From positions 186,001-250,000 of the forward strand of contig CAKZLO010000035.1 of NCBI GenBank assembly GCA_937127125.1: a stretch of DNA of 64,000 nucleotides, written 5' to 3'. This stretch comes from an uncultured Ardenticatenia bacterium. GTDB lineage: Bacteria; Chloroflexota; Anaerolineae; 4572-78; NAK82. Positions 21,469-28,509 of the stretch are shown one piece after another (position 1 is the first letter of the stretch; every line of letters begins with the position of its first letter). The notes under the pieces were generated by a model. It was given only the letters and a program-made list of their open reading frames with translations, searched no databases and was not told the origin of the DNA. The position numbers were made by a program, and so were the translations under genes.

Positions 21469-22875
21469 ATGGGATCGGAAGAACTGCGCAAATTACCAGC
21501 CGTGTCCACCCTGCTCGAGACACCTGAGGCCAAGGCGCTGATTGCACAGCATGGCCACGAGCAAGTGAGGGAGGCATTGCGTGCAGCATTGGAAGCAGCA
21601 CGACAGTCCATCCGTGCTGGAGGTATTGCGCCATCGCGCGCAGCCGTCTTGGCTGATGCATCGCAACGATTGCTGGTCGCGCTGAGCCCCAGTTTGTCGC
21701 CCGTAATAAACGCCAGTGGAGTGATTATTCACACCAACTTAGGGCGTGCACCGCTCTCTGAACGAGCGCGCCGGGCTGCCGCGCTCGTTGCTGCCGGCTA
21801 CTGCAACTTGGAGTACGATCTAGAAGAGGGAGAACGCGGTTCACGCTATGTTCATGCTGCCCGACTGCTGAAGCAGCTTACCGGTGCCGAAGATGCACTT
21901 GTGGTCAACAACAACGCTGCCGCAGTGCTGCTAGCGCTAAGTGCGCTGGCACGTGAGCGTGAGGTGCTGATCAGTCGTAGCCAACTGATCGAGATCGGTG
22001 GCGGTTTCCGCATCCCTGATGTTATGCGTCAAAGCGGTGCCCGTTTGATTGAGGTGGGCACCACCAACCGCACCTATGTGCGCGATTATGCTGAGGCACT
22101 ACATCCTGTGAATACAGCGCTTATCTTGCGCGTGCATCACAGCAATTTCACTTTGAGTGGATTTGTACACGAGCCCTCACTGAATGAGTTGGTAGCACTG
22201 GGCGCAGAGCACGGCGTGCCCGTGATGGATGACTTGGGCAGCGGCAGCTTGTTGGATACGCAGCCGTTCGGCTTAGCGCACGAACCTACTATCCAAGAGA
22301 GTATCGCTGCTGGTGCTGCGCTGGTCACCGCCAGTGGGGATAAGTTACTGGGTGGCCCGCAAGCAGGACTGATCCTAGGACGGGCAGAGCTCATTGAACG
22401 TCTGCGTCGTCATCCTCTGGCGCGTGCCGTACGTGTGGATAAGACGACACTGGCTGCACTGGAAGCAACATTGCTGACCTATTTAGAGGGCCATGCAATT
22501 GAAGAGCTACCTGTTTGGCGTATGATCGCAACGCAGCCAGAGGTACTAAGGCAACGTGTGCGACGCTGGCAGCGCTGCATACAGGGGTGGGGCGTGAAAA
22601 GCACACTCGTAGCCACTCAAGCAACCGTAGGAGGTGGCAGCCTGCCCGGTCAGCAGTTGCCCTCTTGGGCATTGGCGCTAATAACCTCCTCTCCGGATGC
22701 ATTGGCACATCGGTTGCGTCGGCCGGCGCAGCCGGGGATACCGATAATTGCCCGCATCGAAGAGGGACAGGTACTACTGGACGCGCGCACCGTGCTGCCG
22801 GAGCAAGACGATCAGTTACTGGCTATGCTGCACCTGGCGCTCCAGGACATTCCTGTGTCATCTGTCACTACTTAA
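21469..22875 (+). CDS. selA: L-seryl-tRNA(Sec) selenium transferase
   Basis: This 468-residue PLP enzyme converts Ser-tRNA(Sec) to Sec-tRNA(Sec) with selenophosphate. Clear SelA blocks are INASGVIIHTNLGRAPLS, YCNLEYDLEEGERGSR, VNNNAAAVLLALSAL, the VMDDLGSGSLLDT segment and the PLP lysine Lys292 in SGDKLLGGPQAG. The length is typical of bacterial SelA. Its presence implies that the organism makes selenocysteine, but selB, selC and selD are not in the window and I found no obvious in-frame TGA selenoprotein here. rsmI starts four bases after its stop. Confidence 0.95.
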   Translation: MGSEELRKLPAVSTLLETPEAKALIAQHGHEQVREALRAALEAARQSIRAGGIAPSRAAVLADASQRLLVALSPSLSPVINASGVIIHTNLGRAPLSERARRAAALVAAGYCNLEYDLEEGERGSRYVHAARLLKQLTGAEDALVVNNNAAAVLLALSALAREREVLISRSQLIEIGGGFRIPDVMRQSGARLIEVGTTNRTYVRDYAEALHPVNTALILRVHHSNFTLSGFVHEPSLNELVALGAEHGVPVMDDLGSGSLLDTQPFGLAHEPTIQESIAAGAALVTASGDKLLGGPQAGLILGRAELIERLRRHPLARAVRVDKTTLAALEATLLTYLEGHAIEELPVWRMIATQPEVLRQRVRRWQRCIQGWGVKSTLVATQATVGGGSLPGQQLPSWALALITSSPDALAHRLRRPAQPGIPIIARIEEGQVLLDARTVLPEQDDQLLAMLHLALQDIPVSSVTT

Positions 22876-23775: not shown

Positions 23776-25152
23776 CTAGAGTCTAGGTAACGGATAAAGG
23801 GTGACCACTAAGGCAGCCACGCGTAAGATGGGATTGGGAAAGATACCCAATGCAATGGTGGCTAGCGACAGAAGCAACAACACTGACGTCGGCAACCAAA
23901 GAGACGACGCTGATTCCGCACGTGATGTGCGAGATGTGATCGCGTCGGCCCGTAGGAGTACATACAGCGCGCGCAGGTAGGCGAATGCTACTCCTAGACC
24001 AGCCAACAATACCAGCCACATCCACCGCTCATCCATCTGAGCCAGGTTGCGCAACATCAACCAGCGGCCAGCGAATCCCGCGGCCAGCGGAGCACCTACC
24101 AAGGTGAAGCTCCCCATTCCCAGAGCAATAACGGCCAACGGTCGACGTCGCCCCACACCGCATAAGCCAGAAAGAGCATCTCCCTTTGTCTCTGCCAGCA
24201 AGGTGGCCGTTGCAATACCTAACAAAGCCAAGCCAAGCGCCCGAGTTGCCAGACCCGCATATAAAGCTGCTGCCCCTTGTGCTCCCTGTACGGCCAACGC
24301 GATCAAGAGACAGCCCAGGTCATACAGCGCAGCATATCCTAGCATAACGCGCAGACTACGTTGGACAAAAGTCAACACGCCTCCAAGGGTCACCGAAACC
24401 AATCCCACCACCAACAACATTCGCCCAGTTTGGCTCCACCAGCTAAACCAGGAAGCTTCGGCCAACACATGCCCAAGTAGGGTTAACCCCATCATCGGAA
24501 AACCGATCAATACTAGCGCACTAGAAACAGGTGGAGATGAGGTGCTGAATGAAGTCAAAGCGCTATACGCGGGAAGAGCAGCCAGCCAGAGGCTAAAGCC
24601 TATTGCTAACAAGACAGCCGCCTGGGGCAGGTACACCGCATGCTCCGCATCCTCACGATAGACATCTATGTGCCATGCAGCTAGCAGGAAGCAAGGCAAC
24701 GCCAGACACATCACGACCAAGAAACGCCAGCTACCCCGCACCGATCCCGAGAGCTCGCCCTGAATGATGGGCACAGCAGCAATTGCCGCGAGCGTCATCA
24801 TCAAGCCGCTGATCGCCAAGTGACGCGACATAACAGCGATGGCAAACAGTCCAGAAATACACAAACCAAGTGGCAGAAAGTAGCGTCCCGGTCGCAAAGG
24901 CTGCCCAGCAACATACAGCAACGCAGACACGACGAAATAAGTTGCCAGCACATACTGAGTCAGCGGATCAAGCAAGAAGATGCGCCCTGCCAAGCGCACT
25001 GCATTAGTAGGAGGCAAAACAACTGCCAATATGCCCACAAAGAGAGACGCAAAAGCGGCCAGGTATGCTCCCAATTGCCGATGACGCAGCAAATAGACTG
25101 GCACTACTGCTCCCAGCGGGATCACGATCAACCACAACGGGGGCTCAATCAC
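23776..25152 (-). CDS. NuoN/NuoM-like proton-conducting membrane protein, divergent
   Basis: The 458-residue protein has about 13-14 membrane helices and resembles antiporter-like subunits of complex I and related hydrogenases (NuoL/M/N, HyfB/D/F). Recognisable stretches include LLDPLTQYVLATYFVVSALLYVA near the start and TFVQRSLRVMLGYAALYDLGCLLIAL in the middle. By eye, the conserved helix-5 Glu (here SGLMMTLAAIAA) and the helix-7 Lys (here FSLWLAALPAY) that carry protons are both missing. It is the last of three membrane genes and overlaps the previous one by eight bases. No hydrophilic-arm gene lies nearby, so its function is open. Confidence 0.7.
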   Translation of the reverse strand: MIEPPLWLIVIPLGAVVPVYLLRHRQLGAYLAAFASLFVGILAVVLPPTNAVRLAGRIFLLDPLTQYVLATYFVVSALLYVAGQPLRPGRYFLPLGLCISGLFAIAVMSRHLAISGLMMTLAAIAAVPIIQGELSGSVRGSWRFLVVMCLALPCFLLAAWHIDVYREDAEHAVYLPQAAVLLAIGFSLWLAALPAYSALTSFSTSSPPVSSALVLIGFPMMGLTLLGHVLAEASWFSWWSQTGRMLLVVGLVSVTLGGVLTFVQRSLRVMLGYAALYDLGCLLIALAVQGAQGAAALYAGLATRALGLALLGIATATLLAETKGDALSGLCGVGRRRPLAVIALGMGSFTLVGAPLAAGFAGRWLMLRNLAQMDERWMWLVLLAGLGVAFAYLRALYVLLRADAITSRTSRAESASSLWLPTSVLLLLSLATIALGIFPNPILRVAALVVTLYPLPRL

Positions 25153-25825
25153 GCGATCCCTCCCGCAAGGGATTGAGACCCTGGACAGCTGCCAGATACG
25201 ATATCGCGACGGCGAGCAGCAGATTAACCATGGCGAGCAGAAACGTGACGATCAAGCTTGATTCCAAGGGTGTGTAGAACAACTCAAAGCCTGTCAAGGC
25301 AGTTAACAACCCTGGACCGGCCAGAAGAGGCCACTCGGTCAACATCAGAACCATTAATCCGACCAGCATCAGCCAATAACAACCCAAGCCAACATCAGGG
25401 GGGACATCCGGAAGTGGATAATCTCGACCAAGTTGCAACGCCAGTACGAACACCAAACTCATTACCAAGGCGCGAAAGGCTATGCTAATCCATGGTAAAG
25501 GGTCACGCTCGTTACTTATCGAGTCCCCAGAGGAAGTTACCAAGGCAACATCAGCTCGCGAGAGAACGCCCCAGCCAGACTGACGTGCCGCCAAATACAG
25601 CATTAAGCAGATAAGCGCACCAACTAACACTTTGATAAGGGCAATTTCAGGAGATGTCAGCTGCAAGAGGACTATGCCCACCATGACATATTGTCCCAGT
25701 AACGCCAGCAGAGTAACACGCCAGTCACGGACTAAGATGATCAAGGCGCCAGTGATCAATACACCTACCACCCCGCCTTCGCGCATTATCTCCAGCAGCC
25801 GTTCCAGATCACCTACCTCAAACAT
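25145..25825 (-). CDS. Membrane protein, DUF4040/MbhD-like plus NuoK/MnhC-like halves
   Basis: The 226-residue protein has about seven helices. The first half contains SPEIALIKVLVGALICLMLYLAA, which looks like the DUF4040 part of MrpA/MbhD. The second half (WPLLAGPGLLTALTGFELFY then LLAMVNLLLAVAISYLAA) resembles the small NuoK/MnhC/HyfE-type subunit with its conserved Glu. A fusion of two small subunits is thus the best reading, but identity is low by eye. I chose ATG 25825, ten bases after the previous stop and eight after an AAGG; a GTG/ATG upstream would overlap. Confidence 0.62.
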   Translation of the reverse strand: MFEVGDLERLLEIMREGGVVGVLITGALIILVRDWRVTLLALLGQYVMVGIVLLQLTSPEIALIKVLVGALICLMLYLAARQSGWGVLSRADVALVTSSGDSISNERDPLPWISIAFRALVMSLVFVLALQLGRDYPLPDVPPDVGLGCYWLMLVGLMVLMLTEWPLLAGPGLLTALTGFELFYTPLESSLIVTFLLAMVNLLLAVAISYLAAVQGLNPLREGSRD

Positions 25826-25835
25826 CCGATTAACC

Positions 25836-27419
25836 TTAGCGCACCAATACATCCGGGTACACGGTCAATATCAGCCCTAGGCAGGCCAGGATCAGTAAAG
25901 CCCACGCGAGATAGTGTTCGCCTTCAATAACGGCGCGTGCACGTAGCAGCCATCCGCTCCCTACTTCGAACAGCCTCTGACTAGCGCGTAGCAACCATGT
26001 TAAGCGCAACCACATCGCGAAGCGTTGCTCGCCTTGGTCTCCCAAAAGCTGCAATCCCTTGCGCCCATAGCCCAGTGAGATGGCCCATAGTGCCGAACCA
26101 AACAATCCTACCCAGGTCGCAGTACTAATTGAGATGGATGGGATGCTGAGCCACATACTAGGATAGAGTGACGTTAGGGCGACAACAGCCACACCGATAC
26201 CAGCCGCGCGCCAACGAGAGGGGACCCGTGGTACAAGGGACACCTCTAGGGCGCCCTGCCAAAACCGATAGAGAGCAGACAATGCTCCCCCTTGTGTGAC
26301 GACGAGCAACGCTGTTGCCGTCGGTCCGCCGTTACGCCAGAATATGTCAAAAATACCTCCCTGGCTCGGCGATCCGATGACTAATAGGCTGCACAAGGAG
26401 AGAGTGGCCATAACTGGCGGCAGGTACCCTATGCCTTGGAGCACTGAGCTGAAAGGGGACCCCAAACTCGTGGGGATCAAAATCAGCACAAGCCATGCCA
26501 GCATAATGACAAATGAAGCGCTCTGCCATATGGTCCCTTGCCCGCCTAACGCCACCACAGCCAGGACAGTTCCCGACGATGCAAACGCGGCATGTACCAG
26601 GCTTCGCTCACGCCCAGATTCGACCCATGCCAATGTCCCGTGCAACAAGGCAGTCATCAGCGCCGGCCAGGCAATCCAAGGCAACGCTCCCCACTGTGCT
26701 GCATACAAGCCGACGGCCAGATGCAACATTGTCCATACAAGCCGCATCGATGGAAGGGGGTGTACCGTTGCACCTGATTCGAATAACGGATACAACCCCA
26801 GACGCAACCAAGTCGCCAGAACCAACAAGACATTCGGAGACATAGCCTCCGGCTGCACCGTAACATTCTCAAGGCCAGCTATCATCACGCCAGTCGCAGT
26901 GACAACACCTAGCATTAGGCGCGCGATTGCATACCGCGGTTCACTGCACGCCATCCACCACAACGCTACGACACAGTCGAATGCCAGGAGTGTGATAGCA
27001 AGTGTACGACATGTGCCAGCCATCAGTACACCGTAAGCGGCTGCCGTGAGCACAAGAATCAATACCTGACTGCCTACCGTGGTACGTGCATAGAACTCGT
27101 GCCCGGCAAGCGCCACGGCTAGGAGGGTCGAGAATAACACACCCACGAGAAGCGTTGATGGAACCGCATACAGAGCGAGCGTCGTTCCGTCCAACCATTT
27201 CATCAAGGAGTGCAACACAGGTGGAGAGGCATCTGAGAGGCCTAACCAGGCACCCCTGGCCATCCACATCACTACGGCTAGCGCAGCCCCATTTACGGTT
27301 ACAAAGGCCCAGCTGCGCATCCGTGCAGCTACTGCTGGCCCCAAGGCCAGTAACAAGACCGCACCCACCAACAAGATGTACAGGGGCGCAAGGGGGGTTA
27401 TTCTGTCTAAAGGTATCAT
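25836..27419 (-). CDS. NuoL/M-like proton-conducting membrane protein, divergent
   Basis: This 527-residue protein has about 14 helices and is the first gene of the trio. The segment LATWLRLGLYPLFESGATVHPLPSM corresponds to the FKxGxFPFHxWLPDAH block of antiporter-like subunits, but the Lys is Arg and the first His region is changed. LLAFDCVVALWWM stands where helix 5 normally has Glu (Asp here). The protein may still move protons or ions, or serve only as a scaffold. The trio lacks any [FeS] or flavin subunit. No strong promoter was found; 290 bases separate it from the divergent 27709 gene. Confidence 0.65.
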   Translation of the reverse strand: MIPLDRITPLAPLYILLVGAVLLLALGPAVAARMRSWAFVTVNGAALAVVMWMARGAWLGLSDASPPVLHSLMKWLDGTTLALYAVPSTLLVGVLFSTLLAVALAGHEFYARTTVGSQVLILVLTAAAYGVLMAGTCRTLAITLLAFDCVVALWWMACSEPRYAIARLMLGVVTATGVMIAGLENVTVQPEAMSPNVLLVLATWLRLGLYPLFESGATVHPLPSMRLVWTMLHLAVGLYAAQWGALPWIAWPALMTALLHGTLAWVESGRERSLVHAAFASSGTVLAVVALGGQGTIWQSASFVIMLAWLVLILIPTSLGSPFSSVLQGIGYLPPVMATLSLCSLLVIGSPSQGGIFDIFWRNGGPTATALLVVTQGGALSALYRFWQGALEVSLVPRVPSRWRAAGIGVAVVALTSLYPSMWLSIPSISISTATWVGLFGSALWAISLGYGRKGLQLLGDQGEQRFAMWLRLTWLLRASQRLFEVGSGWLLRARAVIEGEHYLAWALLILACLGLILTVYPDVLVR

Positions 27420-27708: not shown

Positions 27709-28509
27709 ATGACTGGCAAGCAGAAATTGATACTAACAGCTCTGGTGTTATTAACCCTTGGCGAGCTGTGTGTGGTGGCTTTATTGGTGCGCCCCTATTT
27801 AGTGGCTACCACCACAAATCACGTTGCTCAAGCTCCTGCGACTGAAACGCCTACTATTGCTCCTACACCGACCTGGACCATGCCACCCACATGGACGCCC
27901 ATTCCGCTGCCTCAGGAAACCAGACCACCTACGCCTACAGCAACGCGCGTGGTCAAGGACACTCCCACGCCCACTATCACACCGACTTATACGCGAGTTG
28001 TACCCACAACACCAGATGTCTCACAAGCCGCTTTTGCTGTGAGCCCTACTCGCCCAGTAATAAGGCGACGTGCCCCTACTGCCACGCCTGCTCCCCACTA
28101 TCCTTTCAAGATTGTAGCGACTCAGGAGTACACTACCACCAATTCCTTCTTTGTTATCTATGCACAGATCAAGAGTGGAGATGCCCTACTGGGAGGCTAC
28201 CGACTTGTGGGGACACATCAGCCTAGCGGATTAACCTTCGAGAGTCCACCATCATGCTGGGATTTATGCAAGGCAAGCGGCCCACGCATCTCAACTACAC
28301 CTTGCTGCAACGAGTTCTGCACACCTATACCAAGCAGCCTGCCACCCCATGTTCAGGAAGGCAATGTAGCATTTGAGGCACCTATTTACGAAACAGGCAG
28401 CTATCAGATTCGCGTACTAGACCCACAAGGTCAACCGGTCTCTGATATTATTGAAATTCCAATTGATGCCAATGACAAAAAGTGGTTCTTCCTTGTATTC
28501 AACCAATAG
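27709..28509 (+). CDS. Membrane-anchored Thr/Pro-stalk protein with beta domain
   Basis: The 266-residue protein has an N-terminal membrane helix (residues ~6-30), a TPTP-rich stalk (~45-110) and a ~130-residue C-terminal domain with six Cys around residues 184-206 (CWDLCKAS ... CCNEFC). The ending YQIRVLDPQGQPVSDIIEI resembles an Ig-like fold. It is likely displayed on the surface like the 10057-10800 protein, and the cysteines suggest disulfides. Its own strong promoter suggests high expression. The function is unknown. Confidence 0.78.
   Translation: MTGKQKLILTALVLLTLGELCVVALLVRPYLVATTTNHVAQAPATETPTIAPTPTWTMPPTWTPIPLPQETRPPTPTATRVVKDTPTPTITPTYTRVVPTTPDVSQAAFAVSPTRPVIRRRAPTATPAPHYPFKIVATQEYTTTNSFFVIYAQIKSGDALLGGYRLVGTHQPSGLTFESPPSCWDLCKASGPRISTTPCCNEFCTPIPSSLPPHVQEGNVAFEAPIYETGSYQIRVLDPQGQPVSDIIEIPIDANDKKWFFLVFNQ

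Follow-up and report, generated by a model that had tools for sequence, protein, structure and literature searches.

An orphan trio of membrane genes in Anaerolineae, probably derived from a group-4 hydrogenase/Ehr-like complex

The trio and its spread in Chloroflexota

The window, a stretch of 64,000 nucleotides, comes from a draft genome of 3.7 Mb in 85 contigs that is 95% complete (G000). On its minus strand lie three ORFs, here referred to as A, B and C, which run from 27419 to 23776 and overlap in the manner of an operon, at the very place where an earlier note on this DNA had put such a trio. A (25836..27419) encodes 527 amino acids and is a diverged antiporter-like protein of the NuoL/M/N type. 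B (25145..25852) is a membrane protein of 235 amino acids whose N-terminal half is MbhD-like, while the relationship of its C-terminal half is unproven, and C (23776..25152), with 458 amino acids, is an antiporter-like protein similar to NuoN and NuoM. The overlap between A and B measures 17 bases and that between B and C 8 bases. The same trio genes are present in the MAG Anaerolineae bacterium SKYB15, and no paper on the trio was found in the open-access literature searched. The opposite strand carries, immediately upstream of the trio (window 27709-28509), a Pro/Thr-rich ORF of 266 amino acids that has no match in Pfam.

B was found by profile search in 271 of 396 Anaerolineae genomes, and a wider B model found it in 116 of 400 genomes of the phylum, other classes included. 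As the A model matches Nuo proteins too, the corresponding tally of A (377/396) was set aside. We compared 64 same-class loci, 63 of which are distinct, as L073 and L167 are one place. By a rule of size, hydrophobicity and distance, linked A, B and C were recognized in 46 of the 64, and profiles revealed two further linked loci (L132 and L164). The A-B-C order recurs in relatives of the same order while the neighbouring genes change, and its recurrence across the class is far beyond chance. Eight genomes in which B and C seemingly stand alone were searched for A elsewhere: five contain a full-length A protein (126-169 bits), and a convincing A was missing in the other three, one of which (G027) gave weaker matches only and two none. 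Moreover, B and C are fused in L052 and A and B in L205, which supports a shared complex.

Family relationships and charged residues

Neither A nor B reaches the cut-off of any Pfam family, and scans with Pfam and NCBIfam give neither of them a name; PF00361 is matched by one of 20 A family members. The profile-profile alignment that the earlier note had suggested places A within the NuoL/M/N-like proteins (98%). In detail, the A family profile matches NuoL, NuoM and NuoN with probabilities of 98.4, 98.0 and 98.2%, as against 0.1-0.3% for reversed controls. C matches PF00361 with an E value of 4.9e-13, and its best profile-profile match is NuoN (99.9%).

B had been read as a fusion of MbhD and NuoK. 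With E values of 4e-9 to 2e-6, the B family model matches frames of the size of MrpA in five genomes, all from one family, and in one of these genomes an independent PF13244 (MbhD) match underlies the match of the model. The N-terminal half of B is therefore MbhD-like, with E about 4e-9 to the MbhD region of MrpA. The match of the C-terminal half to NuoK is no better than that of the reversed control, so only half of the fusion reading is supported. B members match PRK08378 and PRK06280 weakly (E 0.011 and 0.027), and we treat these matches as hints. HyfE was also considered as a relative of B and dropped, its match (E 0.011 versus 0.5 for the reversed control) being not significant.

A tree of 198 sequences unites all 76 C proteins in one group (support 0.78) and the 46 same-class A proteins in another (support 0.73), with the other-class A proteins of L190, L195 and L199 outside the A group. 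The order of the C branch relative to NuoN, NuoM and MrpD was left unsettled by this tree. Some alignments leave out ORFs that are fragmentary, fused or open-ended; for instance, L052 is missing from that of C, and L056 together with ORFs shorter than 400 amino acids from that of A. The final B alignment lacks, for example, L047, L056, L078, L130, L132, L162 or L164. Structure prediction for A alone and for B with one relative gave unusable models with a mean pLDDT of 45. In a low-confidence model, residues 461-527 of A (window 25839-26039) are predicted to form a long helix followed by a hydrophobic helix, an arrangement that recalls the lateral helix in NuoL/MrpA. Glu499, Gly500 and Trp506 of the C-terminal motif Glu499-Gly500-x5-Trp506 are kept in 42, 43 and 46 of 46 A proteins, respectively.

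In the NuoL/M/N references, the TM5 Glu, the TM7 Lys and the TM12 Lys/Glu are each present in 56 of 56 proteins, whereas the canonical TM7 Lys occurs in none of 58 C proteins and in one of 46 A proteins. The earlier note had seen Asp and Arg in A where Glu and Lys are expected. This is exact for Arg206 (codon 26802..26804, minus strand), which falls on the TM7 Lys position in all three alignments and is Arg in 40 of the 46 proteins and Lys in one. It is less exact for Asp148 (26976..26978, minus strand; Asp in 36 and Glu in 4 of 46), which lies on the TM5 Glu in the alignment with NuoM and three residues past it in those with NuoL and NuoN. Thus a restoration of charges at shifted positions, which the note had named as evidence for an ordinary respiratory module, is partly seen: this Asp shows it in part, with a shift of 0 or +3, whereas the lysines do not.

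C was said to have lost both charges, and this is true of the window's own protein. Its Thr120 (24793..24795) and Trp189 (24586..24588), both on the minus strand, occupy the positions of the TM5 Glu and the TM7 Lys; yet 22 of the 58 C proteins retain the Glu, while the TM7 position is held by Leu in 29, Trp in 21 and other residues in 8. That view nevertheless needs correction, since C carries other conserved charges, all encoded on the minus strand. Asp278 (24319..24321), at the position of NuoM His322, is Asp or Glu in 45 of the 58 proteins. Arg304 (24241..24243), at that of NuoL His338/NuoM His348, is Arg in 53, and Arg363 (24064..24066), at the TM12 Lys position of NuoN/NuoL, in 42. Arg394 (23971..23973) is Arg in 54.

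We then looked at proteins outside these alignments. Among 15 further A proteins (12 other-class, 3 same-class), L195 alone has the canonical Glu, Lys and Lys, so that by sequence comparison the usual proton-path residues are probably ancestral for A; the other-class A proteins mostly lack the Asp and Arg of A as well. The TM7 Lys is absent from all 18 further C proteins, and 7 of the 14 other-class ones have Arg there.

Such replacements would also suit a trio of the same origin that had lost translocation and now served as a structural or regulatory scaffold, helping for example to assemble or stabilize another membrane complex. We regard this as the strongest rival explanation, and as an unlikely one. 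It draws on the complete loss of the TM7 Lys in C, on the loss of the TM5 Glu in 36 of the 58 C proteins and on the Arg in A, for complex-I modules no longer conduct protons once their middle lysine is replaced (PMC11496545). However, the buried charges Asp148 and Arg206 of A and Arg304 and Arg394 of C are strongly conserved with no obvious need for them in a scaffold. The charges of A are conserved even in the five unlinked A proteins, each of which retains Arg206, Asp or Glu at 148, and Trp506 (5/5 in each case).

Redox partner genes

Within the class, the neighbourhood of the trio was searched about 10 kb to each side, contig permitting, with models made from other-class genes. No NuoD-, NuoB- or NuoH-like ORF was found at any of the 64 loci, and the trio is indeed an orphan with no electron-transfer gene of these kinds beside it, as the earlier note had described it. 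Partner genes in relatives, also raised there as a check, appear only at a distance. At the 15 other-class loci (L187-L201), a NuoD-like gene lies directly upstream of A in seven and a NuoB-like ORF is present in four. The four linked NuoD-like genes that were scanned match PF00346 (1e-30 to 6e-48). A C-terminal CxxC is found in all seven linked NuoD-like proteins and an N-terminal one in five of them; we take these to be the nickel-iron ligand motifs of hydrogenases. Two of the NuoB-like ORFs match PF01058, and that of L190 is without the cysteine motif that is presumably usual for NuoB-like proteins. In addition, five of the 15 loci contain a membrane ORF of 270-390 amino acids that aligns colinearly but weakly with E. 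coli NuoH (0.4% probability).

In the window's own genome, the NuoD model gave five matches, namely 187 bits on contig C33, 143 and 20 bits for a gene in two pieces on C38, and 32 and 24 bits on C34. The NuoD-like genes adjoining the trio in two genomes, G500 and G542, score 517 and 553 bits with the same model, and nothing comparable to the trio-linked genes was found in the draft G000. From their sequences, the NuoD-like genes of G000 look like complex I or distant hydrogenases. The gene on C33 was considered as the lost partner of the trio and dropped, as by Pfam it is a NuoB-C-D fusion of complex I (L218:7832-10294), followed by a Fer4 protein. NuoB, NuoC and NuoD in one frame of about 820-831 amino acids were also seen, by length and profile matches, in L219, L220, L225 and L236, in addition to L218, where Pfam identified them.

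The place of this fusion raises the idea that the trio serves as an alternative distal membrane module on a peripheral arm borrowed from complex I, the NuoB-C-D and iron-sulfur genes of which are set apart from NuoL/M/N. The fusion and the Fer4 protein on C33 do lie on a different contig from the Nuo membrane sets, which are on C2 and C38, and in cyanobacterial NDH-1 variant distal modules share one core. We consider such borrowing improbable. The two NuoL/M/N sets of G000 and its two complex-I-type NuoD genes pair one to one, which leaves nothing spare for the trio, and the trio-linked NuoD-like gene, where present, is a different, hydrogenase-like one.

The trio might also still be powered by an oxidoreductase that is unlinked or went unrecognised, one like formate dehydrogenase for instance, and complexes of formate dehydrogenase with Ehr have been proposed (PMC6349859). 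Selenocysteine genes occur near the trio in 9 of the 63 loci: SelA in three (window 21469-22875, L047 and L160) and SelB in six (L136, L137, L139, L141, L145 and L146). A molybdopterin oxidoreductase is near the trio in L140 and L167. These associations, however, were noticed post hoc, are inconstant and possibly reflect chance or inherited synteny. Moreover, no suitable NuoD-like gene was found in G000, nor a suitable NuoB-like one among the PF01058 matches examined; of its five PF01058 (NuoB-like) matches, two are at the places of complex I and the rest on C34 and C44. We give little credence to this explanation.

Among six single-contig genomes of the class searched with the NuoD model, five have matches up to 209 bits only. 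The sixth, G226, has an extra NuoD-like gene of 270 bits more than 1 Mb from its trio. About 20 other genomes of the class, of 150 searched, have NuoD-like matches of 265-315 bits, which we take to be presumably separate group-4 hydrogenases.

Origin and possible mechanism

The trio shares features with three known systems. Its antiporter-like proteins belong, by profile comparison, to the same family as NuoL/M/N of complex I; however, G000 has two separate NuoL/M/N sets, and the trio proteins fall into tree groups of their own and are without the residues kept in all 56 references. The Mrp antiporter, which is redox-free, combines NuoL-, MbhD- and NuoN/M-like parts (PMC7419157). The trio resembles it in having MrpA/MbhD-like and MrpD-like parts, but its operon consists of just three genes, apparently none of them MrpB, E, F or G, and its key residues differ; PF13244 has no match in the window's genome. 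With the group-4 [NiFe] hydrogenases and Ehr complexes the trio shares antiporter-like subunits and, in the seven other-class loci, a linked gene like NuoD or the hydrogenase large subunit. In Anaerolineae, by contrast, it has no adjoining redox subunit, and the canonical TM7 lysines are replaced. Since the hydrogenase-large/NuoD- and NuoB-like subunits are absent beside it, the trio would be derived from the hydrogenase/Ehr family and not a member of it.

We consider it likely that the trio goes back to a group-4-[NiFe]-hydrogenase/Ehr-like complex in Chloroflexota, in which it formed the membrane arm and the redox subunits of which seem to have been lost in Anaerolineae. In some other classes the trio is still encoded with a hydrogenase-like NuoD, sometimes with a NuoB-like and perhaps a NuoH-like subunit, while in Anaerolineae the three membrane subunits alone would have been retained. 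Its origin is explained by the other-class relatives; the novelty lies in a redox half that was apparently lost while most of the class kept the trio. The new complex supposed in the earlier note is for this reason not wholly new, given the NuoD- and NuoB-like genes beside the trio in other classes; what stands is an orphan trio without the canonical TM7 lysines.

As for the mechanism, A, B and C may assemble together and translocate ions without redox chemistry, with a pre-existing gradient of ions or protons as the driving force. Asp148 and Arg206 of A, with Asp278, Arg304, Arg363 and Arg394 of C, would then replace the usual Glu-Lys-His-Lys axis. We infer this redox-free module with a rebuilt charged axis from two published findings: isolated antiporter modules of complex I can conduct protons without redox subunits (PMC11496545), and Ehr complexes are described as lacking the Ni-Fe ligands while having antiporter-like subunits (PMC6349859). 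The statement as a whole, hydrogenase/Ehr-like origin included, has in our judgement about an even chance of being right. It is favoured by class-wide conservation, the retention of unlinked A, the fusions, the NuoD linkage in other classes, the nature of the NuoD-like matches in G000 (complex I or weak) and the conserved replacement charges. Against it we count the block caused by lysine replacement, the unusable models of A and B, the draft state of the genome, the 270-bit gene of G226 and such genes in other genomes of the class, and the three of eight genomes without a convincing A. A more specific version, a redox-free ion transporter throughout the class in which conserved Asp and Arg have rebuilt the lysine relay, possibly for an ion other than the proton, is tentative and rather doubtful. 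Arginine gives up its proton poorly, and classical lysine-relay pumping by the trio is therefore unlikely.

Complex I research has yet to explain how antiporter-like subunits operate on their own, without redox chemistry. With its redox half apparently lost, key lysines swapped and conservation across most of the class, the trio offers a natural evolutionary experiment on which residues matter. The other-class genome G500, with a NuoD-like gene beside its trio, is a single contig of 5258541 bases and is apparently that of Chloroflexus aurantiacus. Two complex I clusters are listed for this species in sections of PMC3150298, and the trio cluster of G500 is not described in those sections. The fuller version with the NuoD-like gene thus apparently exists in a cultured bacterium, so that the two states could be set side by side in the laboratory. 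Two further genes follow the operon in other-class loci that have the NuoD-like gene (L187:13072-14903, L188:5293-6321, L194 and L198), one for the ATPase of an ABC transporter and one for a membrane protein.
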